From the NCBI GenBank assembly GCA_000310025.1, contig FN649746.1, positions 2,968,704-2,992,591 on the forward strand: a stretch of 23,888 nt of DNA, given 5' to 3'. This DNA is from Ectocarpus siliculosus (lineage: Eukaryota; Sar; Phaeophyceae; Ectocarpales; Ectocarpaceae). Position 1 is the first letter of the stretch, and each line of letters starts with the position of its first letter. Positions 1,111 through 22,042 of the stretch are shown piece after piece. A model generated the notes under the pieces. It was not told the origin of the DNA. It ran no database searches and was given only the letters and a program-made list of their open reading frames with translations. Position numbers and translations under genes: made by a program.

Positions 1111-1510
1111 ACGACCATAAAGGCACGGCAGAGCACCGACCGACCGTGCAGGTTCCCACCGTGGCACAATGAAGGACGAAGAAACAAAATAATTTAAATG
1201 TGTGCAAGACTGCCGTTTCTCCTTGGGTGTAAGTCGTGGTGTGGTCCCGGTTTAGCGGTTAGTTCAACCCCTATTTAGCGGGGCGCGCTGAATAGCGGTT
1301 CCAGTTCTCGTGGCACGGCTGCACGTCGGTAGTCAACACTACCATACCATACCATATAACTGCCAATCCGGTATAGAAACTACCACATAACTGCCAATAG
1401 CGGCGATGCCCTCAACAGCGGTGTACCACATTTTGCGATTCTAAGGACCGCTAAATGGGGACCACGACTGCTGTACGACAAAATATGAAAAAAAAAACAG
1501 AAAAAACGCC

Positions 1511-1538
1511 CGACCGACCGACCGACCGACCGACCGAC
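1511..1538. repeat. (CGAC)7 microsatellite at the NDUFV1 exon 3 donor
   Basis: Seven cgac units on the plus strand read GTCG x7 on the coding strand. The first GT is the splice donor of intron 3. Slippage here would change intron length without touching the exon. Confidence 0.9.
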
Positions 1539-1731
1539 CTTGCAGGTTCCCGGCTCTGATTCGTCGGCGTTCACGACGAGGAACGAGGGCCGGCCATCAG
1601 TGTTCTTGGGCATGAAGGACCACTTCAGGCCAGAAGGGAAGCCGGCACCGCCCCTACCCCTGAGGCCCGAGTCCTTCATCTCCTGCACGATCCAATCGGG
1701 ACCCATCCACATGATTTCCTTCGTCTGGTGC
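1539..1731 (-). CDS. NDUFV1: NDUFV1 exon 3: FMN-binding loop
   Basis: The exon is 193 nt. The acceptor is TCTGCGCAG|GCACC and the donor is TGCAAG|GTCGGT. It encodes [20 protein letters not shown], then the Gly-rich FMN loop [15 protein letters not shown] and [11 protein letters not shown], which in the family contributes to FMN contact. It ends in phase 0. The donor GT is the first unit of a (GTCG)7 microsatellite that forms the start of intron 3. Confidence 0.93.
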
Positions 1732-4700
1732 CTGCGCAGACCAACCAACACAAAAACGGGCCCGCAGTTGAGAAACGGGTGTATATCGTTAAGAAACAGC
1801 GGCTTAAATTTTCACGAATACTAGGGAATATTTTTTAAAGAAAAATATATGTAGCTCAGCGGAGAATCCTACACAAAACTCTATACAATCTAGCCTGTGC
1901 TCGGCTGTGGCCATCAAGTAAGACTTGACGCGCATTTGACCTTCATCTCCGGAGCCGTTCTGTACACAAAGCAGTTTCTGCACAAAGATGTCTCTTTGTT
2001 TTCACAGAAACATTACAGCTTCTGCCCCAGAATATTTACATTTTTTCTCTTGCGGGACATGGATCAAGCCTTGCAACAAACATGCTTGCATCGATCAACA
2101 TATTTGTATCGAATCGAGGCACCCAAAGCCAGCCTACGAACCGCAGGCTGTGGCTCGCACCACCGCACCAGTGAAGGTCTCTTCTTGAACCCTACCGACG
2201 TCGGTACCAGAGATAGCTATCGACGTCAACCAAGTCGGGACGATAGTCATTAGTGACAGAACTGCTTCTGGCATAGAGCCGCCTTCGCCAGAAACTAAGT
2301 TTTTCAAGAGGAAATAGAACAGGGAGGGGGCACGCAGACCGTATTCCCTAACCGTAACCCATACCCAACTTCCCCGATTGCATACTTTATCCAACACGTT
2401 TACTTCATAGAAAAATCCTGCCAAGGCCGCTTTCTTCTTGTTGTTGTTGGTCTTCACTTCAAATCAGCGCTCACAGCATTTGTTGTGCCGTGTACTCCAA
2501 CCCGTGGTCACACAGAAGGGTTCCTCTCCCTGAGGCCCCCTATTGTACCCACCCCTCCTGCGGTACTTTGCCTTCGCCTCTATATGCGAGAAGAGTGCAG
2601 CACTCTCATCCCTCAGGTGTACACACGAATAAAGTAGTGCTTTCCACCCAGGCCAAGAACGGAAGCTAGAGACTAGAGTTGGCACACTGTCGGAACCTCC
2701 CATCTCAAGCTCGAGTTAGCCACCAACATGCCGCTGGGCTACTCACCAGTCTCCGCGCTTCAAGGCATCTCCCACTCGCCAGTCCTGCTCCCCGTACAGG
2801 TTGGTGAAGATTCGGTCCTGGTCCTTGAGCCCGCCGTACACGCGGGGCGGCTCCGGGGCCTCCTCCTTCGCCCCCGGGGCGGCACTCAGGGATCGCCTGC
2901 CGACATTTCAGAGGGAGTGGCACACCAATATTACGTTTTGTACGCCTGAGAGGTTAGACCATTTGACGAGAGGACGGAGCACTGTTCCCACAGGACCGAT
3001 GGCCAATCGTTCCAAGCAGGGAGGGGGAGAAAATGGTATACCATGTTGGAAGTGTAGACGCAAGGGAGGGCGTTGTGTAGGTTGTCAGCGGTGCTCAGGG
3101 ATCACCTCGCAACATCTCAGAGGGGCAGGGGGCAGAACAAAACCGTACCATGTTGGAATATATCTATGTATGGCTACCATAGATGCTCTCACGTTGCTGC
3201 TCTCATGTTGGGGGAGTTCGAAGAGTGATGTTGGCTATCATCGATGCTCTCACGTTGCTGCTCTCATGTTGGGGGAGTTCGAAGAGTGATGTTGGCTATC
3301 ATCGATGCTCTCACGTTGCTGCTCTCATGTTGGGGTAGTTCGAAGAGTGATGTTGGCTATCATAGATGCTCTCACGTTGCTGCTCTCATGTTGGGGTAGT
3401 TCGAAGAGTGATGTTGGCTATCATTGATGCTCTCACGTTGCTGCTCTCATGTTGGGGTAGTTCGAAGAGTGATGTTGGCTATCATAGATGATGCGCCTAC
3501 CGTCACGCAGAAAGAAGGGTGGCGGAAGAAAACCGTGCAGTGGTAATGTTCCAATTTTGATGCTCTGGAGGTGAGTGCTCTGACGTTAGGGTGCTTCGGA
3601 CCGTTAAGTCACAGCGGCACATGCGGTTTATCGATCGCCAAACATACCGTAAACGTCGGAGTTCCCCCCCCCCCAGTAGAGTGTTCCCCTCCCCCCATTA
3701 CCTTGTCGGCCTGGAAGCATGGTTTCTACGATTTTCCCTGGGGTAGATCGTTTTCGACCAAAAAAAAAATCCCCCCGGGTATTTCAATTTCCCCCCGGGG
3801 TACCAGTTTTCCCACGAGTTCCCCACGGGGGGGGTGTATTTCTCTATTTTTCTGAGTCGATTTTGTTGCATCGCGGAGCACAAAAAACATGATATGGGAC
3901 GGAAAATTAATTTGCAGATCTGCGCTTCGAGCGAGATTTAGGTGTACCGTTTGTCACTGGAAGGCGGGCCCTTTCTCTTCTTGGAATCACTTGCGGGACG
4001 AGACAAACTCCCTCAGCTGCTGTTCTCCTTGCTGTATTTTTTCTCTTCGCCTTCGTTGCTCTTATGTTCCTCCTCCCTCTGCTTGTTGAACGCTTGCTCG
4101 TAAACCTTATCCATCTCAGTTTCGCCACTCTCTGTGTGTGTGGTGTGTGGACCATCATTATTTTGCACAACCCCCCGGGGGGGGGGCTTCCCCCCGGGGT
4201 AGCGTTGAAAAAAAAATTACCCCCCCCCGGTACGTCAATTTCCCCCCGAGGGGGTTGGTTTCAGAAAAAAAAATGATCCCCTCCCCGGGGGGGAAATGCC
4301 GACGTTTACGTTACACACCACACGGTCTTGATTTGTTATTTCCGCTCCAGGGGGTTCGGACTTCTCCTGACTCCGTTCGCATGGGCTGTTGCGTGTGTTG
4401 GAAATTGGAAAGTGAGGCTGCTAAGCAGCACCTTGCGCCGCTGTCTTACATCAGGTACTTCTGCCTTTCAACATATGCATGTGCGGATGGTATTCATGGC
4501 ATTGTCTACTTGGGGGCGCTTCGCAGGATTTTTAATGGGGGTGCCCCCTCGAGAGCATGACACCGACGTGTAGGAACATGATGAGGTTTGTCTGAAATCC
4601 TGCCGTTTCGCAAACGACACAACAACCGGCAAACAACGCCAACAACGCCAATGGCAGCAGCAGCAGCAGTAGCAGCATGGGTGTGTAATGTGTAGGGCAC

Positions 4701-10770: not shown

Positions 10771-10839
10771 ATGGCGAAGGTGGCCGTGGCGTTGGGGGTA
10801 GTGCTGGCGGCGGGGTGCTGCGCACCGGCGGCGAGGGCA
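10771..10839 (+). other. Signal peptide of the receptor
   Basis: The first 23 residues read MAK, then a hydrophobic core (VAVALGVVLAAGCC), then APAARA followed by ASA. This is a classical n-h-c layout with AxA-type cleavage sites after residue 23 or 26. The signal lies well inside the upstream open frame (open from 10474), so translation most likely starts at 10771 or 10735 and not at the distal ATGs. It sends the repeats to the outside of the cell, which agrees with their paired cysteines. Confidence 0.82.
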
Positions 10840-13800
10840 GCGTCGGCAGGGGCGTCCCACTCGTGCACCGTGCTCGTCGGGGGAACGATCAAGTGCTGGG
10901 GGGAGAACTTCTGGGGCCAGCTGGGGCAGAACGACAACCTCGTCAGGGGCAAGAACGCCTCCGACATGGGCGACAACCTGCCCTACGTCCAGCTGGGCAT
11001 CTTCGAGGCCGACATGGTGGCCTCCGGCAGCGAGTTCAACTGCGCGCGCTCCGTCGACCGGGAGGTCAAGTGCTGGGGCCGGAACAGCGCCGGGCAGCTG
11101 GGATTGGGGGACAACGAGACCCGGGGCGGGGTGAACAACGTCTTCGAGATGGGCAACGAGCTCCCAGTTGTGGACCTGGGCGCCGGGGTGATGGTGGAAA
11201 CCATCGGACTCGCGGGGTCCCACGCCTGCGCCGTGACGCTGAGCGGGCTCGTCAAGTGCTGGGGGGAGAACGAGGGAGGTCAGCTCGGGCTCGAGGACAA
11301 GCTGGCCAGGGGAAACCTGACGGGCCAGATGGGGGACAACCTGCCCTACGTTGACCTGGGGACCGGGGTCTTGGCCTCGTCGGTGGCGCTGGGAGCGAGG
11401 CACACGTGCGCGGTTGTCGATGACGGCGGCGTCAAGTGCTGGGGTAAGAGAGTGTCGTAAGGGGTGGGTGGTGTTTTTAGCTGAGTCGCCGGTTTGGCCG
11501 CGCCGGAATACCCGCGGGGTCTCGACTACGGGATCTATAGGTAGATCCGAAGTTGTCTGCGTGAGGTGTTTAGTTCTCGCGTTTTTTGTTGTATTAGGCG
11601 GCGGTTGAGCGTGGGTCGCACAGCGCGTTACCGTATATGACACAAGATAACACACCCCCTGGGCCGATTTTCAAAGCTCGATTTCTCAACAGCAGGAAGA
11701 GTCACAGCGCCGAAAACGGCGGCGTTGGAACCGTCTCGTCGAGAGGTTTTCGACAATGTATTGTTTCGTTTATGCATCCTCTTCGTCGTGGAGTAATCGA
11801 GCTTTGAAAATCGGTCCAGGGGGTGTGTTATCTTGTGTCATATACGGTATGTCACTGCCTCTCGACGGTCATGCGATGTAGGTGGTTTCTCGTGGAGTTG
11901 GGAACGGAAGGTAGGAGTCTGGTTGGGGGGGTTGTTTGTTCCGTGTGTGTGACTTGCTGTGTGCAGCCGTTGGTGTGCAGCCGTTGGTGTGCAGCCGTTG
12001 GTTGTCCGTGGTGCTGACGGTTTTGTGAGAAACTCTTGCCAGCGGCGATCGTCCCCCTGATTGCAGAGGTGTGTACGTTGTGCGTTCGTGTGTGCCCACG
12101 GGAAAACCGAAGAATCGGATACATGTCGGAAAAGCCCACAACCTGTCAAAATAGTTGCGCCACGTTTTTTGGTTCGCTCTCCCGTGCTGTTTTGATGCAG
12201 GGAACAACGACGGGGGCCAGCTGGGGTATGGAGACACGTCCGCTAGGGGCACTGCTGCCGGCGAGATGGGGGATGATCTTCCGTTCGTGGACCTTGGTCG
12301 CGACCAGAAGGTGGTTGCGGTTGCGGCGGGATTCTTCCACACGTGCGCGCTGCTGTATACCGGCGACGTGAAGTGCTGGGGTGAGTTTCGGACGGAGCAG
12401 CAGCAGTTTGTATCGCTCGAAAGTGCGAGCATCGCATGAAAAGGCATGTGTCGCACACACCCCGGACAGGATTTTCACAGCTCGATTTGCTCCGTCGGCA
12501 GCCGGGAGACATGCAATGATAGGAGCTCGAAAAAGGGTCGTTTGTTGGAGTCTGGTAACGGGCTTGTTATCAGGTATATGTCCTTGCGAACAGCTACGAG
12601 GATGTACTTTTTAACCCGAGATAAACTGGTGCAAGGGTATATCCTCCCAGCTTTGGTACCAAAATTTAATCTTTTATCAGGAGCAACAGGAGGGGGGGGG
12701 GGGGAGGGCGCCGAGAATTATGGCACTCAAAGACAGCACTGGCTTGAATGCCAACTGCTCTGGCGTTGAGCATGCCTGCGTCCTCGCTGAAAACTGTTTC
12801 TAATGGCTGACTGACAAGCTTCTCTACATGCCGCGGTGATGCCTTCACCTGTGAGCTATTGAACCTCGTGAGCGTGCATGCGTCGCCATGCTTGCCTTGA
12901 AAACGAGGCATCAGGTGCATATTCAAACTAGGTCCGTGGTTGGTCAACACACTGGTTGAGACCACAAAAGCGGATGCTGAGAGCTCGTTGGTGCGCCATG
13001 TGTTCATTTTTTTTTTTTTTGCATGTTTTTGCAGGTTTTGGGTCGAACGGTCAGCTTGGTCAGGGCACCAACGAGTCCATCGGGAACTCGGCGGGTACCA
13101 TGGGAGACAACCTCCCGCCTATCGACCTCGGCACCGGGAGCACGGCCATCGCTATGTCCCTGGGAGGGACGCATTCATGCGCAGGTGGGCACCCACGTTT
13201 GTTGGGGGGCCAAAGCAGTTATGCTGGTGATGCTTTGCTATTAGGGCTGCAGTGCAGATTCAGGCGGGCGGTTTTTTATTTTAACGCGTGTGTGTGTTGT
13301 GTTGCATGCAAACTTACAATTTTGTGCCGCCGCCTTCGCCGCTGCCCTTGTACCAACCTTTCGAGAGCCAAGCAAGATAAAAAGATAAAAAGTACAAGAA
13401 AAACGATGATGTTAGACTGCGAAGATGGGCATTTTGGCGTATTCTCCCGAGACCCATTGGTGTTCCTTCACGCTTTTTTTTTTCGCCACTTTTTGTTTTT
13501 TCCTGCGACCCTTGTTGGGGTTGTGCTTTGACGCGATGTTGTGTCGCCGAGTGTACTCAAGCATGCTCCTTCCCCGTCCGACCGTTTCCTTAACGTGGCC
13601 CCCAAACCGCCACCATCTCTTCGTTGTAGCTCGCCTCGAAAACCACGACGAAAAATACAAACGGCCGCCTAGAAATCGCCAACATCTCTTAACAAACTCG
13701 CAAAAATAAATACCACCGCCCACGTGCGTGGCCCCCAAATCCCCATCTTGAGCTAAGTTGCTCCGAAGCGTAGGTACCACCGCCCACAAAGGCGCGATCT

Positions 13801-15388
13801 CTGCAACTAAGTCGCTCCGAATGAGTAAATGCCACCGCTAACAAATCATCATTATCTCTTATCTAAACTCTCTCCGGATAGGGAATACCATCGCCCACAT
13901 GGCCCCTAAATCGCCATCATCTCTAACTAAAGTCTCTTCGAATACGGCATACCACCGCCCACAAAAAATCGACGTGAATCCTTAAAATTAACTCTCTCCA
14001 ATACAATGAATGCCACGACCATCCACACCAGTGCTGGACGACCACACGGTCAAGTGCTGGGGCGGCAACAGCGTCGGTTCGCTGGGCCTTGGCGACATCC
14101 TCAACCGCGGCACGGCACCGGGCGAGATGGGAGACAACCTCCCGGATGTAGACCTGGACTTCGGCACAGGAGCCGGATCGGTGTCCAACGTCTTCGCCGG
14201 TAGGTTCCACACTTGCGTGTCCGGCACCGAGGGCGGGCTGGTCTGCTTCGGGCTTAACACCGGGGGTCAGCTCGGGGCCGGCACCGACGAGAGTAGTATC
14301 GGCGATGAACCCGGCGAGGTTGCCGCGCTTTCGTCCATCAGCCTGGGGACGGACGAAGTGGCGGCGGTCGTTGCGGCCCCCGGGGAAGGGTTAGCCTTGC
14401 AGACGATTTCGCCGACTCCGGCGCCCACCGCAGAGAGATTGACAACTCCGGTGAGCGAGAGAGACCCAGACTACTAAGACACCGGAGCCTTCAGACTTCC
14501 GTAGGTTGTTGCATGATGTAAGATACCACACCGTCTCGAACGATTTTCAAAGCTCGATTACTCCACGACGAAGAGGGTGCTAAAATCAAAGGATAACGTT
14601 GTCGGAAAGCTCTCCACGAGAAGGTTCCAACGTTGCCCTTTTGCGGCACCGTCACTGCTTTTCCTGCCGAGTAATCGAGAAGATCGGACCAGGGTGTGAC
14701 TTGTTACATGCAGCCTACGGTACAGTCTACACGCACCAACAAGACTCCAATGTCTTATGACTACGGGTCTGAACGAAGAAGTCATACACCAAAGCCTTCG
14801 GCGACAGATCTTGAGGTGTTGGCTTTTGAAACGATTGCAGGGTGGGCGTGTGTGTATATACTGTAGTGATATAGTGTAGGAGTAGTGTCGCCAGATTGCA
14901 CTGCTGTACCGGGCACTATGCAGACAACGTTAACATTATTCCACCATTGTCACGCGATTTTTGTGTCATCGGCAAGGTGAGTGGCACTATTGAGAGACGC
15001 GCCCACTGCTGTGCGTGTACCATGTACATCGTATACTGCAGCCAGCTGTTTTTCATTAATTAGCACCGACCGCGCTACAGCAACCGGCGGGCCCACGAGA
15101 ATAAGTCGGGATTGGTGGGTGAAAGACAAGGCACGTGGTGCGGGCCAACTTTGTGTGTGTGTGTGTGTGTGTCTTTATTGTTAGCATCGAGTGCGCTACA
15201 ATACAAGTATTAACCAATGAAATGACGTCAGTCTCAATGCGGCTGAAAACAACGAAACAAACGTGCATGGTTTTTCCTTCTTGTTTCCTCGGCAGCTGGC
15301 CTCTCCTCTCGTGACAGATATATTTTTTTCGCGTTCCCGTTTGCGTTTTTTTTTTTTTTTGTCTCTCTCTCTCTCTCTCTCTCTCTTT

Positions 15389-15434
<46 letters not shown>

Positions 15435-15437
15435 GTC

Positions 15438-15468
<31 letters not shown>

Positions 15469-18400
15469 TTTGTCTCTCTATCTCTCTCTCTATCTCTCTC
15501 TCTCTCTTGTCGCGCAGCCGGTGATTATGACGAGGTCACCTGTCGAGCAAACGGACGCACCGTATGGGGCGGGACACGATTCGGGCCCGGCGGACTTGGG
15601 TACGTACGATATTTCCGGCCTGTTTTGGGTCCATTGCGGAGGAGTCTTGCTTGTTGCTTTTTTGTGTCCAGGTCATTTATCTAGGAGAGAAAAGACGCGT
15701 GTGTGTGTTTGTTATTTTTTTTTCTACGATGACACACTGGATCCATATCTATCCACAGATAGAGAGTCCGGGAGAGATAAGGATTAGATTAGCAATGACT
15801 CAAGCGTTTGAGCGGACACTCTTCTCTTCGTGTTTGTAACCGCCGGATTCCCCTACATATACGACACATTTCAGAAGGCAACGGCGATAGCGGCGATGGA
15901 GGAGACGCTGGTACAACCGCTGCCATCGCCACGGCCGCCATCCTTATCCCTGGCTTCGCTCTCTTCGGCCTCTTCTGCTGCTACCGCCGCCGCAAGCGGA
16001 AAGAGGGAGAGTTGAAACGGCCATCGGCCGCCGTGAGCGCGGGTCCAGGCGGCGGGTCTGGGCGGGAATTCGGACGAGAGGGTGAGTGTTTTTTTTTTTT
16101 TTGGTCGTGTCGTTTGGTCTCTCGATGTCGTCGGTCTTCTTTTGCCCCTTTCGGTACAAGTTTTGGACGAGGTCGCAAAGGATAAAGGCACACGGGAGTT
16201 GTGCTGTCCCCCTTGTTTCCCTCCCGCGGTGCTTGCCTTCATTTATCATTTTTTCGCGAGAAGGGTCCGCTGCTCCTTCCTTCCCCTGTTGAAACGGGAA
16301 AAATTTACCATGGTATATATTTACCATGGATCGGGAGTATTTTTATTTTCTCCGCGTTCTTGCCTTCATTTTATCGCGAGAAGGGTTCCGCCGCTCCTTC
16401 CTTCCCTCGGTGAGATGGAAAATTTTTGTATCATGGTAAACATCGCCATGGATAGATGTATTATGACATATACGCGTACGAAGAGCGCTGCCGCGAAGTT
16501 GCTGGCGGCGCGTCGCAGTGGTCACGTCTTGTTCTTCTTTTGTCCTGCCTTGGCACTCATCTGTTTGCCGGCGCTCGCATGGTTGTCTTGGTCCTACCCT
16601 ACATCCTTGGCTCTCTCTTTCTCATCTATCAGTGTAAGACCATCGAGAGCCGAGTCGCGATAAACGATCGCAGCTGCCCTTTCTATGCATGCATACATGC
16701 ATCCTTTCGACTTGCGAGGTGCCAAAAAGAGCCTCCAACAAACTCCGCCTCTTTTTTTTGCGCGATGCATGTTTCTCCTTTGCCGACTGTATGTGGGATC
16801 TTTGTTGTTGTTCCGGCCTTTCCCCCCCCTCCCCCACGATGATTGTTCTTCTTACGGACGCAAGACTCGTTCACCTCCTCAGAAAACAACGTGGAAGCCA
16901 ATGGCGAAGGGCCCACAGAGACGCTCGCGAACAAGCCCCTCGTGAAACCCCACGCGCTGCAGTCCACGGCGCCGATGACGGACGGACGGCAAGCAGGCGG
17001 CGAGGCCGCCGCCACCGCCGGCACCCTTGGAGACTCCACCGAGGGCCTGCTGAGACCGCCTACCGCGGCGACGGCCATGGCCGTCGGAGCCGCGATAGCG
17101 GCCGGTACCGCCGCCGCCGCAGGAACCGCAGGCGGCGACGATGACGAGTCTTCTAGGTCAGACCTCGAAAATCCAGGCAGGCTTAGGAGGACCGGGTCGA
17201 ACTCGTCGATCAGCACCCTTGGGTCAACGTCGACGGCATCGTCCACGTGGCCGAACGACGGCTTCGTTACCCCGGCGCGGAATAACATCCCGCGGGGGGC
17301 CGGCGGCGGGCGGTACGGGTTGGGCGGGATCGGGGGTAAGGGGGGGGAGGGGCTGCCGCCCGGGTACAAGACGCCCGGGAACCTGTCCGCTGCCACGCCC
17401 AACAGGGAGATGACGATCCCGGAGACGCCGTCGCCGCGGTCGGTGTCCAGCTCCGTCCACGGAACGCCTGCGGTATGTGCTATACGACATACGACGTTTG
17501 GTGTTGCCACGGGTGTGTCTATTGAGTATTAGTATCGGCCGCGCTACGTAACCGACTGACTGACTATTAGACGCCTAACGTGTGTGTATTTTGAGCAGTA
17601 GCATCGGCCGCGTTAGCCGGCTCACCAGTGAAAACACGTCAGTCCTCTAGCGGCTCTAAATTTTGGAGAAACTTCTGCAGACCGTGATCTTAGACCACTT
17701 GAGGGGGGGCTCATGGCTGTGTCCGTGTTTCTTTACTTGGTATGACTGGGTGTTGTCTTCGTGCGGGAGGAAGGGGGGGCTCACGCACACGGTTGGACTC
17801 TCTCCTTCGACCTCCTTCGTACGATGTTTCCCCACACAACGCTGACCCTGGAAATATAAACCCGCACGCGCTCTTCGATTCAATGAATCTTTGATTCAAT
17901 GAAAACGCCCATTCTCTCCGCCGTCAAAACAGCCACCCGGCATGAGGCTCGCGCAGTTCGCAAGGGTGGGCGGGGGCGGGGGCGACACGAGCCTGTACGG
18001 CCTCCCCGAGATGGAAATCGGCCGGTCCACGAGCAACGTCTATGACAGCAGCCCTTCCGGGAGCAGCTGGCCGGTGGGCAGCAAGGGCGGTGCTCCCTTG
18101 ACCGCGGCCTCTATCGCCGCCGCTGCCGCCGCCGCCACCGCTTCCGCCCAGCCGACGCCCGGCGACAGCGCGAATCCTTCGCCGAACAACAACGCGACCG
18201 CTACCTCGCCGACCGCCGAAATCGATACCGGCGGCCGCAAGTCTAACCGCTCGAGCCGGACGGCCGGCGCGTCCCCGACAACGGGGGGGGTGGGCGGGGC
18301 GTGGGGGGACAGGGAGGGCGGGGGGGGCATGGGAGCGGAGGCGGCGGCGCAGGCGTTTACGGAGGAGGCGGAGCTGGAGGCCCTGCAGATCGACAAGAAC

Positions 18401-21400
18401 GACCTCAAGCTCGTGTTCGGGCGGCCGTTCGCGAGAGGGAAGTCCTCGGAGGTGTATCAGGTCACCCACGCCGGCAAGAACCGAGCCGCCAAGGTTCGTC
18501 GCTGTTTTTGTTTTTTTTTTGTCTTTACTTCGAATCAGCGCTCACGAGCACTTGTGAGGTTTAGTCCAACCCCTTGGTCCCACAGGAGGGTTTCCCCCTC
18601 CTACCCACACCTCCATCGGTTCGCTGCCTTCGATTTTCAATGCGACCAGAGTTTGTCTTGATGTTAGGAACCGTTCCGGTCTCCGGTCACTACCTTCGAA
18701 AATCCGACGTTAGTGTGTGTGTCTATATTGTTACAGTATGTAGCATCGACGGCTGACCTGAACTGAAGTCTAGTCTCGGTGTGGCTGAAATCAGAAAGTG
18801 CTTCTAGAGGGCATAGTCTGGTCTGCGACCGCTTGTGTGCATGGAGGCACATGCGATGATATCAGCCTCCCAAGGGGTGAACGGGTGATGTATAGCGGAA
18901 TGCATCCCCGTTGATTCTAACCGTGATTTTTTTTGCTTTTTTTACTCTTTTTGGTCTTTGGCCGGCGGCACTGATTCGACTGCTGGTGTTGTGTGCACGT
19001 ACAACATCAGCCCATCTGCGCAGTAAAATTCAGGCCAGCCACGCTAATAGGTGACATGATGGTGTGAACCTGTTCGCACTGAGTATTTTGTGTGTTGTTT
19101 TGCGCGTCCTTCATCGGCGATGTGGCAGGTCCGACTCGACTTGGTGCTTTGATTGAAAGAAATGATGTGAGGACCATGAAAACCTAACCAACCCTAATAA
19201 CAACGATCAGATCATCCACTTCTTCTCGCTGGGTGGTCAAAATGAAATGATGGACCATGGAGACCTAGTAAACCTTGCCCGAACCCCAACCCTAACCCTT
19301 AACCCTTAACCCTTAACCCTCACCATTTTCAGATCATCGACCTCTTCTCGCTGGGCGTCGTGGGCGAGGAGGTGACTCGCCTCTACGCGTCCTTCGCGCA
19401 AGAGCTAAGGGCGATGAAGGGCATCCGCCACGACTGGTGAGCCGTCATACGTTGCTCAACACCACGGTAGCGAGTTGACCCAAGGACTACTCATACGTTG
19501 CTCAACACCACGGTAGCGAGTTGACCCAAGGAATGGAGTACTAGCAGTAGCACGGTGGCGCCATGACGCCCACAACGCACCCCAGCTGAGCGCATGGCTC
19601 CGTCTTGCCCCTCCTTTCCCGCTATTTTCCGTTGGAAACCCATTGAACGAAAATAGTGTGGCGGCCGTTTACGGCGCGGTTGCGACGCCATCAGAGCTGA
19701 CGATCGTGACGGACCTGGTGAAGAGAGGGCCGCTGAGGACACTCCTCACCGACAAGAAGAAACGAGAGAGTCTCACGCCCGCCATCCGACACAAGATCAT
19801 CAAGGACGTGGCGAGCGGCATGGGCTACCTCTATGAGCAGGGGCTGCAGCACCGGAACCTCCACAGCCACAACGTGCTCATCACGAAGGAGTGGGGGGCC
19901 AAGGTGCGGGAAAAAAAAAAAAACACGCGTTGTTGCGTCGTCTCCGCCCTGCTTGGCTGTCAACCTTGTCATATTCCCCCTCTTTTTGCGACAGGAACAT
20001 CGCCGTTGTTTGTTCGCCAGGCAAACGGCCTCTTTTTTTGCATGCCGGAAAGAACACCTCTTCTTATACCGCTCCCTGCCTGCCGTCGTCGCCATTACGC
20101 CCCAAGCTCCTCTCACGGCAACTCCCCCTCCCCCCCCCCCCCCCCGATCCCTCTTGCGGCCGGTGTCGTCTGTGGTTCCCCCCTGCAGGTGGCCGACTAC
20201 GGCTTGGCGCGCACTAGCGAGGTTATGCTGGGAGCACACGACCGTGCCAAGACCAAGTCTAAGTCCCGGTCGCGGCCGCCGGCCCCCAAAGTCGGCGCCC
20301 TTCGGTGGATGGCGCCGGAGCTGTTGCAGGCGTCCACAGACGGATCTGTCGACTTGTTCACGGAGGCTAGCGACGTCTACAGGTGTGTGTGTCGACCACT
20401 TACACATGTCTGCTGATTCTTACCCCGAAACAATCCGCGTACGCGGGCCCAGCAGCACAGCGCTAAGTAGGCCGTTGCCATTGTTGCGCCGCTCCACGAC
20501 GCTGACGTTACTTTACCCCCGTCTTCGCTGTGTTGCTTGCTCGGTGCTGTACCTACCGCCGTTTTCCCGGCGTCGTTTGACCCTTCCCTTCCCTTTCCTT
20601 CCCTTCCCTCCCCTTCCCTTTACAGCGTCGGAGTGATCGCCTGGGAAGTGCTGTGTGGCGGGTCCAAGCTGCCGTACGATGGCATTGCCGACGACAAGGT
20701 ATATATAGCACCTATACTATGCTTTCCATTTCCCTTTTTTGTTTTATTGCTTGCACCCATTGGTCGTCGAGCGTGCCGAAGATACAGCCGTACGCAGCAG
20801 CAGCCAGCATGTTACCCAACTGGCAAACGATTGTTTGGGGGTGAGGTCCGGAACCCCGCGTGCGCCGGAGCTGACGAGCCGGCGCGCGCCCTTCTAGCGA
20901 TCTGTTTTCCCGCTTTTGTGTCGGTGCGGCTCTAGACGCCTTCGGTATCTTAGTATATCGTGGCATGCGATGCTCCCGACCGCCGCTTCCGGTTGGTCGG
21001 TTAATCCTCTGATGTGCCACTCCGCGTCATCCCCCCCCCCCCCGCTCGTTATGTTTTCGCGCAGGTGAAGTCGATGATAATCGAAGGGAGCACGCCCCCG
21101 GTTTCGATGGAGACTCCTATCGTCTATAGTGAGTACTGACGCCTCTTGTTGGTGTACGTTGACATAACCACGACAGGGGTTTTTGATGGTGTACAGCAGT
21201 AGCACAGCAGCATCTCCGACTTCTGGTCGGTGGTAGCGTGTAGCATGCTTCATGGACGAGAGAGAGATACGATAGTGCCCTCCCTCTACTCAACTTGATC
21301 GCCTACCGCAATGATTTGCAAGAAAATATTGACGTAACAGTCGTGTCTCCGATATCCGATATAAGAGGGTGGTGTGGCAACCGATTTCGACCCTCTTGTA

Positions 21401-22042
21401 TCGCAGCCCCCCCTTTTACCGGAATAAGAGATATCTAAACTTTCCTATAGAGGGTCGAGTCCGTGACAACCGATTTGGACCCTCTTCTGTCGGAACCCGC
21501 TCTTGTGAAGTGCCTGCCATGTTATTTGGGATCCACGACTGTACCATCGCAGAAAGACTACAAGTATTGTAGCCGTTCGAGATGTAACCCATGTGTTGTG
21601 GGGTGGCGTGGTGTCGTTGACTTGTAGTTCGGGTCAGGGTAAGGCTACCCTGAAACCCTAAAACTCTTAAGTTTTTTCTTGTAGCTCTACTCGGGGTAAC
21701 GGACAGGAGCGAGCTGTCGGGAATACACCGGTCCTCGCGCTGCCGTTTGTTTGTTTTTTTTCGAAATCTACGGTGTCTACGAAACATCGCTTGGGGCACG
21801 GCGAAGAAAATCGAGGTGAATGACTCGGGGCGTTGATTCTGCCACCCGCCCAACCACGGACCCCCCCCCCCCCCTCGCGCGCGCGCTCGTGTTTCGTTTG
21901 GACAGATAAGCTCATGCTGCTGTGCTGGAGAAAGAACCCGTTATCGCGGCCTTCGTTCTCGCACATGGCCTCAGTACTTCTCAGGGACCCCCCACCGGTT
22001 GGTAAGGCTTCGCCACGACTACCGGCATCGTCATCGTCCTGA
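10771..22042 (+). CDS. RCC1/BLIP-repeat receptor kinase-like protein (extracellular seven-repeat propeller, one TM helix, TKL kinase with HRN motif)
   Basis: Fourteen exons join phase-perfectly: 10771-11443, 12201-12380, 13035-13184, 14032-14450, 15518-15599, 15875-16081, 16883-17472, 17933-18493, 19333-19436, 19657-19903, 20189-20382, 20626-20698, 21065-21128, 21906-22042 (TGA). They encode about 1226 residues, and every intron is GT-AG. Order in the protein: signal peptide 1-23, seven RCC1-like repeats about 30-454, acidic stem, TM helix about 516-538, RRRKRK stop-transfer, a roughly 370-residue Ala/Gly/Ser-rich linker, and a TKL-type kinase domain about 925-1210. Kinase marks seen: K954, E978, HRN 1054-1056, N1061, DYG 1074-1076, APE 1113-1115, D1133 and R1196. 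It is predicted to be a type I plasma-membrane receptor, with the ligand unknown. An in-frame ATG at 10735 would add 12 residues. Exon 7 could instead start at 16865, adding six residues. RNA data would settle both. Confidence 0.92.
11631..11847. mobile_element. MITE with 53-bp terminal inverted repeats, receptor intron 1
   Basis: The ends read ccgtatatgacacaagataa and continue as inverted repeats for 53 bp with a single mismatch. The element is 217 bp and is flanked on both sides by TA (11629-11630 and 11848-11849), which fits a TA target duplication of the Tc1/mariner type. It has no coding capacity. The near-identical ends indicate recent activity, and it lies in the same orientation-neutral form within intron 1. 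Confidence 0.88.
11961..12002. repeat. Three 14-bp units in receptor intron 1
   Basis: gtgcagccgttggt is present three times in perfect tandem. Confidence 0.9.
12448..12530. mobile_element. MITE end fragment, receptor intron 2
   Basis: cacacaccccggacaggatt followed by ttcacagctcgatttgctcc resembles one terminal repeat of the 11631-11847 element. The opposite end is not clear (a weak gagctcgaaaa lies near 12524). Confidence 0.5.
12681..12715. repeat. G-rich run in receptor intron 2
   Basis: A purine-rich stretch (agcaacaggagg and then over ten G) could form a G-quadruplex on the non-template strand. Confidence 0.6.
13590..14031. repeat. Degenerate ~60-bp tandem array ending at the exon 4 acceptor
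   Basis: Marker taccaccgcccac or a variant occurs at about 13711, 13775, 13829, 13886, 13950 and 14011, each followed by a ccccaaatcgccatc-like and a ctaactaagtctctccgaat-like block. Weaker units start near 13590. The last unit (aatgccacgaccatccacac) runs directly into the AG acceptor of exon 4, so the splice site lies in repeat-derived sequence. Confidence 0.75.
14499..14720. mobile_element. Diverged relative of the MITE, receptor intron 4
   Basis: The ends (ccgtagg...) are imperfect inverted repeats. Internal blocks gattttcaaagctcgatta, ctccacgacgaagag and gagtaatcgag match the element at 11631-11847. Length is 222 bp, close to the intact copy. The right flank is TA and the left is TT. It is older and more decayed. 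Confidence 0.7.
15049..15249. repeat. Dispersed intron repeat family, copies in intron 4
   Basis: Two related units: ttagcaccgaccgcgctaca at 15060, and a (gt)n run followed by gtctttattgttagcatcga, gtgcgctaca and tgacgtcagtctcaatgcgg at 15151-15249. Relatives lie in introns 7 and 8. Confidence 0.65.
15362..15509. repeat. TC microsatellite upstream of exon 5
   Basis: Long (tc)n runs are broken by ttttgtc at regular places, giving a higher-order pattern. The tract ends 8 bp before the CAG acceptor of exon 5 and doubles as its polypyrimidine tract. Confidence 0.95.
15875..16081 (+). other. Exon 6: transmembrane segment and stop-transfer
   Basis: After an acidic, Gly-rich stem (EGNGDSGDGGDAG) comes a hydrophobic stretch TAAIATAAILIPGFALFGLF at residues 516-535, at about 15916-15984 with the following CCY. 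It is followed at once by RRRKRKEGELKR. The positive-inside rule puts the propeller outside and the kinase inside. The CC at the membrane face could be lipidated; that is inference only. Confidence 0.9.
16232..16453. repeat. Two-copy ~127-bp tandem duplication in intron 6
   Basis: Copy 1 (16232-16330) and copy 2 (16359-16453) share cttgccttcattt, tcgcgagaagggt, ccgctcctt-like and ccttcct blocks, and end in ccatggat. They are diverged by small indels. Copy 1 also contains the near-palindrome ttaccatggtatatatttac. Confidence 0.8.
16883..18403 (+). other. Cytoplasmic low-complexity linker, exon 7 and most of exon 8
   Basis: About 355 residues, rich in Ala, Gly, Ser, Thr and Pro, join the membrane to the kinase across intron 17473-17932. 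Exon 7 holds an Ala-rich stretch (residues about 631-655) and Ser/Thr-rich segments such as RTGSNSSISTLGSTSTASS and SPRSVSSSVHGTP, which are plausible phosphorylation regions. Exon 8 opens PPGMRLAQFARV and contains a poly-Ala run. No known domain was recognised. The two exons join in phase 0. Confidence 0.75.
17512..17660. repeat. Dispersed intron repeat family, two copies in intron 7
   Basis: tgtgtctattgagtattagt then atcggccgcgctacgtaacc (17512-17565), and cgtgtgtgtattttgagcag then tagcatcggccgcgtt, with cacgtcagtcc and gcggct following (17579-17660). The order of blocks is the same as in intron 4. Confidence 0.65.
18520..18641. repeat. Dispersed repeat shared with NDUFV1 intron 2
   Basis: Second copy of the 2451-2590 repeat, beginning cttcgaatcagcgctcac and ending near ctgccttcgattttcaatgcg. 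It lies just inside intron 8, 27 bp past the donor. Confidence 0.72.
18709..18792. repeat. Dispersed intron repeat family, copy in intron 8
   Basis: gtgtgtgtgtctatattgtt, then tagcatcgacggctgac, then tgaagtctagtctcggtgtg and gctgaaa. It has the same block order as 15151-15249. Confidence 0.65.
19281..19322. repeat. Telomere-like repeats before the exon 9 acceptor
   Basis: aaccctaacccttaaccctt continues as a short array of CCCTAA and CCCTTAA units, ending 10 bp before the TTTTCAG acceptor of exon 9. It supplies C/T-rich sequence for splicing. Confidence 0.85.
19445..19532. repeat. 46-bp tandem duplication in intron 9
   Basis: tcatacgttgctcaacacca followed by cggtagcgagttgacccaag occurs at 19445 and again at 19491 with no difference over 42 bases. 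It begins 8 bp after the exon 9 donor. Confidence 0.93.
21359..21489. repeat. Two-copy repeat in intron 13
   Basis: Copies at 21359-21400 and 21446-21489 share agagggt, tgacaaccgattt (or tggcaaccgattt) and gaccctctt. Each copy has agagggt near its start and accctct near its end, so each could form a small hairpin. Confidence 0.75.

Follow-up and report, generated by a model that had tools for sequence, protein, structure and literature searches.

With moderate confidence, we interpret a gene of the brown alga Ectocarpus siliculosus as coding for a single-pass receptor that joins a propeller of bacterial type to a probable pseudokinase, would signal through an active partner and came about independently of the plant CRINKLY4 (CR4) receptors. 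The gene occupies positions 10771-22042 (+) of the 23,888-nucleotide stretch of DNA analysed (C21:2968704-2992591; hereafter the window). Related loci were sought in the alga's own genome (189 Mb, 492 contigs) and in prokaryotic and viral sequences. When this genome was scanned for the EsV-1-7 motif, at least 150 matches came from the 150 of 880 candidates that were scored, in line with the expansion typical of brown algae.

Gene structure and domain organization

The gene model consists of 14 exons separated by 13 GT-AG introns and translates into 1226 amino acids with no internal stop. Since the splice sites were picked by eye to fit domains and phases, the agreement of phases is in part a product of construction. 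The features are as follows.

10771..10839, +: probable signal peptide, residues 1-23 (hydrophobic N-terminus in the hydropathy scan; cut site by eye)
10771..11443, +: exon 1, signal peptide, repeats 1-3 and, as far as KCWG, the first half of repeat 4 (gene model, Pfam)
12201..12380, +: exon 2, 60 codons from CWG to CWG, one repeat length, phase 1-1 (gene model)
13035..13184, +: exon 3, second half of repeat 5 and start of repeat 6, phase 1-1 (gene model)
14032..14450, +: exon 4, remainder of repeat 6, repeat 7 and start of the stalk (gene model, unspliced reading frame)
15518..15599, +: exon 5, extracellular stalk without Cys (gene model)
15875..16081, +: exon 6, acidic stretch, transmembrane (TM) helix and basic stop-transfer YRRRKRKEG (hydropathy maximum; weak match to C48)
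15922..15981, +: predicted TM helix, residues ~518-537 (hydropathy scan)
16883..17472, +: exon 7, cytoplasmic linker rich in Gly, Ala and Ser (gene model)
17933..18493, +: exon 8, linker, then kinase N-lobe with glycine loop and beta-3 Lys954 (gene model, Pfam)
19333..19436, +: exon 9, alpha-C region (gene model)
19657..19903, +: exon 10, hinge to catalytic loop HRNLHSHN (gene model, aligned kinases)
19856..19858, +: AAC codon for Asn1056, at the site of the expected HRD catalytic Asp (sequence, aligned kinases)
20189..20382, +: exon 11, DYG (Asp1074), activation segment and APE (gene model)
20626..20698, +: exon 12, alpha-F (DVYSVGVIAWEV) (gene model)
21065..21128, +: exon 13, C-lobe (gene model)
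21906..22042, +: exon 14, kinase end (CWRKNPLSRPSF), tail and stop (gene model, Pfam)

The most hydrophobic 19-residue segments of the protein lie at residues 514-538, which contain the TM helix, and at the N-terminus, while the linker of 390 residues (541-930) is devoid of Cys and rich in Gly, Ala and Ser. All Pfam domain scores exceed the curated cut-offs, so that the domains are not attributable to chance. The phased model, Pfam and hydropathy together confirm the fourteen-exon gene, the coordinates and the anatomy (signal peptide, seven Cys-paired RCC1-like repeats, TM helix and kinase) put forward in the original prediction. When exon 4 is read unspliced, a stop is reached at 14477, 27 bases beyond the donor, and a soluble isoform of the ectodomain is thus possible.

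Intron 1 carries a 62-nt inverted repeat (11629-11690 / 11788-11849; 95% complementary, 97 nt between the arms) that looks like a small MITE-type element. A seemingly similar, more worn stretch was seen by eye in intron 4 (~14510-14720), where the inverted-repeat scan returned no match. Elsewhere in the window, positions 1380-1811 (-) hold an exon of the complex I 51-kDa subunit (Complex1_51K, E 9.9e-14).

The ectodomain and its bacterial relatives

Pfam recognizes the ectodomain as RCC1_2 (PF13540; 150.7 bits over 6 stretches), RCC1 (PF00415; 91.3 bits) and WD40_RLD (PF25390; 177.4 bits). Seven C-X9-C[W/F]G repeats start at residues 32, 91, 153, 213, 273, 333 and 396, 59-63 residues apart, and four N-glycosylation sequons stand N-terminal to the TM helix. 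The best PDB match is plant UVR8 (phmmer, E 2e-34, 122 bits). The seven RCC1 blades would probably close into a beta-propeller, with one disulfide in each.

The nearest relatives of these repeats among the collections searched are bacterial. A prokaryote scan of one genome per species (84,980 species) yielded 60 loci, a set that leans towards close relatives because it was chosen by peptide patterns from the window. The best blastp match to the ectodomain is L062, from a groundwater metagenome-assembled genome of Lambdaproteobacteria (53% over 410 residues, 378 bits), alongside L063 of Pyxidicoccus fallax (47% over 431 residues), L064 (46% over 410) and L065 (49% over 352). By comparison, four open reading frames (ORFs) from a set of five ordinary RCC1 loci of the alga, hand-picked from the genome scans, reach 27-32% identity and at most 60 bits. 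The original prediction placed the repeats in a type seen in many bacterial and protist surface proteins; the bacterial part of this is supported by the gap between 53% or 47% to bacterial proteins and 27-32% to the RCC1 proteins ordinary for the alga. Aligned with 21 of 52 bacterial stretches, the exon 1 stretch shows the eight Cys of its four Cys pairs to be invariant. A segment resembling MGDNLPxVDLG occurs in five of the seven repeats of the window protein, and 10 of the 60 bacterial loci contain the strict form MGDxLPxVxLG.

The bacterial RCC1-repeat proteins (L062, L063, those of Myxococcales and others) have C-X9-CWG repeats as in the window protein. They differ from it in that Pfam revealed no kinase in the five of their ORFs that were scanned, the repeat number exceeds seven in several, and L062 bears nine Big_5 stretches, owing to which it is probably extracellular.

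An ectodomain tree of 33 rows, including 24 of the 60 bacterial loci, joins the window and its paralogs C48 and C21b to the bacterial repeats (84/89, a grouping flagged open), and six ORFs from ordinary RCC1 loci of the alga fall apart from that group. In this tree the ordinary rows cover less than half of the columns and mostly form long branches, and the letter composition of seven rows is unusual. On the simplest reading of these comparisons, the algal ectodomain would derive from the bacterial kind of repeat.

Against the paralog C48, dN/dS is 0.13 for exon 1 (186 codons) and 0.11 for exon 2 (61 codons), with dS near saturation at 1.2-1.4; a third segment (0.46) was left out, as it paired different repeats. 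From these two exons, the ectodomain is under purifying selection.

The scan of viral contigs yielded 12 loci, among them a relative, L127 (IMGVR_UViG_3300020471_002086), with 45% identity to the ectodomain in its best segment. In the alga's own genome, an RCC1-type match at C18:670865-671149 lies within an open frame of 3609 amino acids.

The kinase domain has lost the catalytic aspartate

The kinase domain scores 151.4 bits with the Pfam profile PK_Tyr_Ser-Thr (PF07714) at 969-1205, compared to 105.6 bits with PF00069. The best 60 of its 1977 PDB matches consist of tyrosine kinases together with CTR1, a Raf-like kinase of plants. Judged by these likenesses, its fold is of the TK/TKL type.

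HRD is changed to HRN at residues 1054-1056 (catalytic loop HRNLHSHN), and DFG to DYG with the metal-binding Asp1074 kept. Also kept are the beta-3 Lys954, the alpha-C Glu (by eye), the catalytic-loop Asn, APE and RPSF. The glycine loop (A-x-G-x-x-S) is degenerate, and as it is equally so in the related kinase of the C11 locus described below, it does not set the window copy apart. The catalytic Asp does: it is present in C11 and in 19 of 20 other kinase loci of the genome, picked from the better matches of own-genome kinase searches. On account of this replacement of a residue that is otherwise kept, the domain is probably a pseudokinase. The word kinase in the original prediction implied an active enzyme, and to this extent it is not upheld. 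HRN could also be specific to the strain, one genome having been examined.

The exception among the 20 loci is L060 (C21:674001-679000), a second kinase without the catalytic Asp, where His takes its place (HGHLTSSN). Fifteen kinase segments of close kin in the same genome (L045-L059) have HGD in place of HRD; in five of them GC rather than GT follows the catalytic-loop exon, perhaps marking GC-AG introns.

A second locus of the same order and kinase-less paralogs

The C11 locus (~1,088,500-1,105,200) presents RCC1 repeats, a TM-like stretch followed by CCCRR, and kinase exons, in the order and strand arrangement of the window. Its kinase exons carry AAK, HRD, DFG, APE and RRPTF. It differs from the window in its intact HRD and DFG, its ectodomain in more segments and its less similar repeats. 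C11 is partly modelled: ~6 kb separate the last repeat from the first kinase exon, one junction is out of phase as drawn, and part of the kinase C-lobe was not found at the locus.

In a tree of 22 rows and 98 columns the window and C11 kinases group together (93/96; 42% identity). The program gives this group no star and cautions that long branches may be meeting; the row of the window is itself long. The best non-self match of the C11 kinase in the genome is a window exon. In the reverse search, C11 has the highest identity among the better non-window matches (45% over one exon, 46.0 bits); two other kinases outscore it (54.3 and 49.5 bits), but at 37 and 35% identity. The best 60 PDB matches of the imperfect C11 kinase draft include IGF1R, CTR1, PAK, RIPK1 and CERK1.

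Two intron positions appear to be common to the window and C11 kinases, one at K|(V/I)xD(F/Y)G (phase 0) and one at the alpha-F Ser codon (phase 2; by eye). Ten of the 20 other kinase loci have GT at the former position, a hint that the kinase came from the alga's own receptor-type kinases; perhaps, then, it stems from the alga's own stock.

As C11 repeats the same order and the two kinases group, the fusion is probably real. Chance adjacency was considered and found unlikely: with ~30 RCC1 clusters (by eye) and an assumed 300 kinase loci, ~0.25 same-strand kinases would be expected within 10 kb downstream, and here are two loci, with kinases that group and a TM stretch between the domains, although a lone pair would prove little. 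Sequence comparison thus indicates that RCC1 repeats, TM helix and kinase probably belong to one receptor gene. That claim of the original prediction gains from C11 and from the paralog C48, whose ectodomain (75-79% identical to that of the window on the compared stretches) is followed by a hydrophobic exon weakly similar to exon 6 (35.8 bits, 32%, low-complexity filter off). The own-genome kinase searches scored 137 of 359, 120 of 678, 107 of 107 and 112 of 112 candidates; given this coverage, further RCC1-kinase genes may exist. At C19, a weak kinase match lies ~26 kb from an RCC1 cluster and was left out of the count.

C48, C8 and C480 have RCC1 repeats, and the 20 kb retrieved per locus yielded no kinase match. 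The candidate TM segments of C8 and C480 are hydrophobic open stretches outside any gene model, several of them in C8. Based on the repeats, the hydrophobic stretches and the lack of a kinase match, these three may belong to this set as receptor-like proteins. At C21b no kinase was found, and the corresponding TM place holds only low-complexity runs. The trees conflict, since the window goes with C48 and C21b by ectodomain but its kinase groups with that of C11. Either domain exchange or a kinase lost from C48 and C21b would account for this.

Comparison with known receptors

CRINKLY4/ACR4, with CCR1-CCR4, resembles the window protein in its signal peptide, seven Cys-paired RCC1-like repeats, single TM helix and cytoplasmic kinase. 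CR4 is made up of C(X10)CWG repeats of ~39 residues, a TNFR-like region, a TM helix and a kinase (PMC4617170). Hydropathy gives the window protein the signal peptide and the single TM helix of this layout. All seven of its repeats are C-X9-C[W/F]G and 59-63 residues apart, no Cys occurs in residues 410-515 between repeats and membrane, where CR4 would have its Cys-rich TNFR-like region, and a long Gly/Ala/Ser linker, HRN and bacterial-like repeats further distinguish it. Repeat type and the lack of a TNFR-like region led us to reject CR4 membership. No K[DE]SAF juxtamembrane motif occurs in the window protein; the KD/ESAF motif also went undetected in moss and lycophyte members of the CR4 family (PMC4617170).

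The original prediction had described the linker as unlike that of CR4 and the TNFR-like part as absent, which agrees with the Cys-free residues 410-515 and the 390-residue linker. It had further proposed an independent origin, of which the portion that is supported is a CR4-like layout built from other parts, as seen in repeat type and the absent TNFR-like region. The CR4-like design itself probably arose independently, judging from the repeat type, the lack of a TNFR-like region, the relatives within the alga and green algal CR4-like proteins, which are described as having neither TM helix nor kinase (PMC4617170). The protein may work like a CR4-type receptor, and on the features tested it is not a CR4 member.

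Such independent assembly has precedent, as LRR receptor kinases are considered to have at least four independent origins, with Ectocarpus among the cases (PMC3268121). Those of Ectocarpus and oomycetes are likewise thought to be independent of the plant ones, but their ectodomain is of LRR type (PMC3268121). HER3/ErbB3 is a receptor that also has HRNxxxxN with the beta-3 Lys and metal-binding Asp (DFG) kept, and is classed as a pseudokinase (PMC13259870). It differs from the window protein in its ectodomain, its His at the alpha-C Glu position and its intact glycine loop and DFG, the window having a degenerate loop and DYG instead; a kinase fold alone is common. Plant RCC1-RLK and RCC1-RLP classes combine an RCC1 ectodomain with or without a kinase (PMC9603095); they are defined by a prediction program and are likened to the window by description, not by sequence.

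Alternative explanations

The protein might phosphorylate substrates on its own, as an active receptor kinase in which HRN is tolerated or a different residue serves as base. Some kinases without the standard motifs are still active, and Lys954, Asp1074, the catalytic-loop Asn and the RPSF arginine are all present in a frame that stays open through the kinase exons. Retention of the Asp in C11 and 19 of the 20 other kinases, together with the pseudokinase status of HER3 under the same substitution (PMC13259870), makes this reading unlikely, and a probable pseudokinase is preferred.

Two adjacent genes, one for an RCC1 protein that is secreted or membrane-bound (exons 1-4 or 1-6) and the other for the kinase, would accord with the stop just past the exon 4 donor and with C48, C8 and C480, where RCC1 repeats and hydrophobic stretches occur with no kinase match in 20 kb each. 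We regard this division as very unlikely, considering that phases can be matched over all 13 introns, that an exon 6-like hydrophobic exon lies behind the C48 ectodomain, and that the RCC1-TM-kinase order recurs at C11 with a kinase that groups with that of the window. Least credible of all, to the point of being nearly dismissed, is membership in or direct kinship with the plant CRINKLY4 family. The common layout speaks for it, as does the plant receptor kinase CERK1 among the best 60 PDB matches of the C11 draft; C-X9 in place of C-X10, the 59-63 versus ~39 residue spacing and the Cys-free stretch from repeats to TM tell against it, as do the bacterial affinity of the repeats within the collections searched and the green algal CR4-like proteins without TM helix and kinase (PMC4617170).

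Proposed mechanism and origin

In the proposed mechanism, the seven-blade propeller outside the cell would bind an extracellular ligand, and the one helix crossing the membrane would relay the signal to a kinase fold carried on the long flexible linker. The fold may have kept the ability to bind nucleotide, with phosphate transfer most likely slight or absent. The window receptor would then pair with an active receptor, which it either activates or is phosphorylated by. The candidate partner is the HRD-bearing RCC1 kinase at C11, a natural choice on the grounds of a common ectodomain type and, probably, common kinase ancestry. The plant CR4 family offers a parallel in its mixture of active and nearly inactive members: ACR4 is active, CCR1 and CCR2 are nearly inactive, and ACR4 is able to interact with CCRs (PMC4617170).

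As for origin, most likely a propeller of bacterial type was fused with a receptor-type kinase native to the alga. A fuller history is put forward tentatively, as a possible course that we would stop short of calling probable: the family would have arisen by horizontal transfer of a bacterial surface propeller, later cut in part into blade-sized exons, and its fusion to a native kinase, independently of CR4. It would then have split into an active kinase (C11), a pseudokinase co-receptor (the window) and kinase-less members (C48, C8, C480), echoing ACR4 and the CCRs.

No such receptor was met in the titles and abstract openings of open-access literature on RCC1, propellers and receptor kinases in brown algae or Ectocarpus. 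A 2024 brown algal genomics paper in Cell reportedly discusses receptor kinase ectodomains, and a prior mention there is possible.

Overall, brown algae gained multicellularity on their own, and their receptors are little known. If the present reading is true, the same signalling design would have been assembled twice, here from a bacterial-type ectodomain and a local kinase, and in plants as a cell-fate receptor. The active and inactive pair would furnish a testable model, in which C11 is the enzyme and the window protein its partner.
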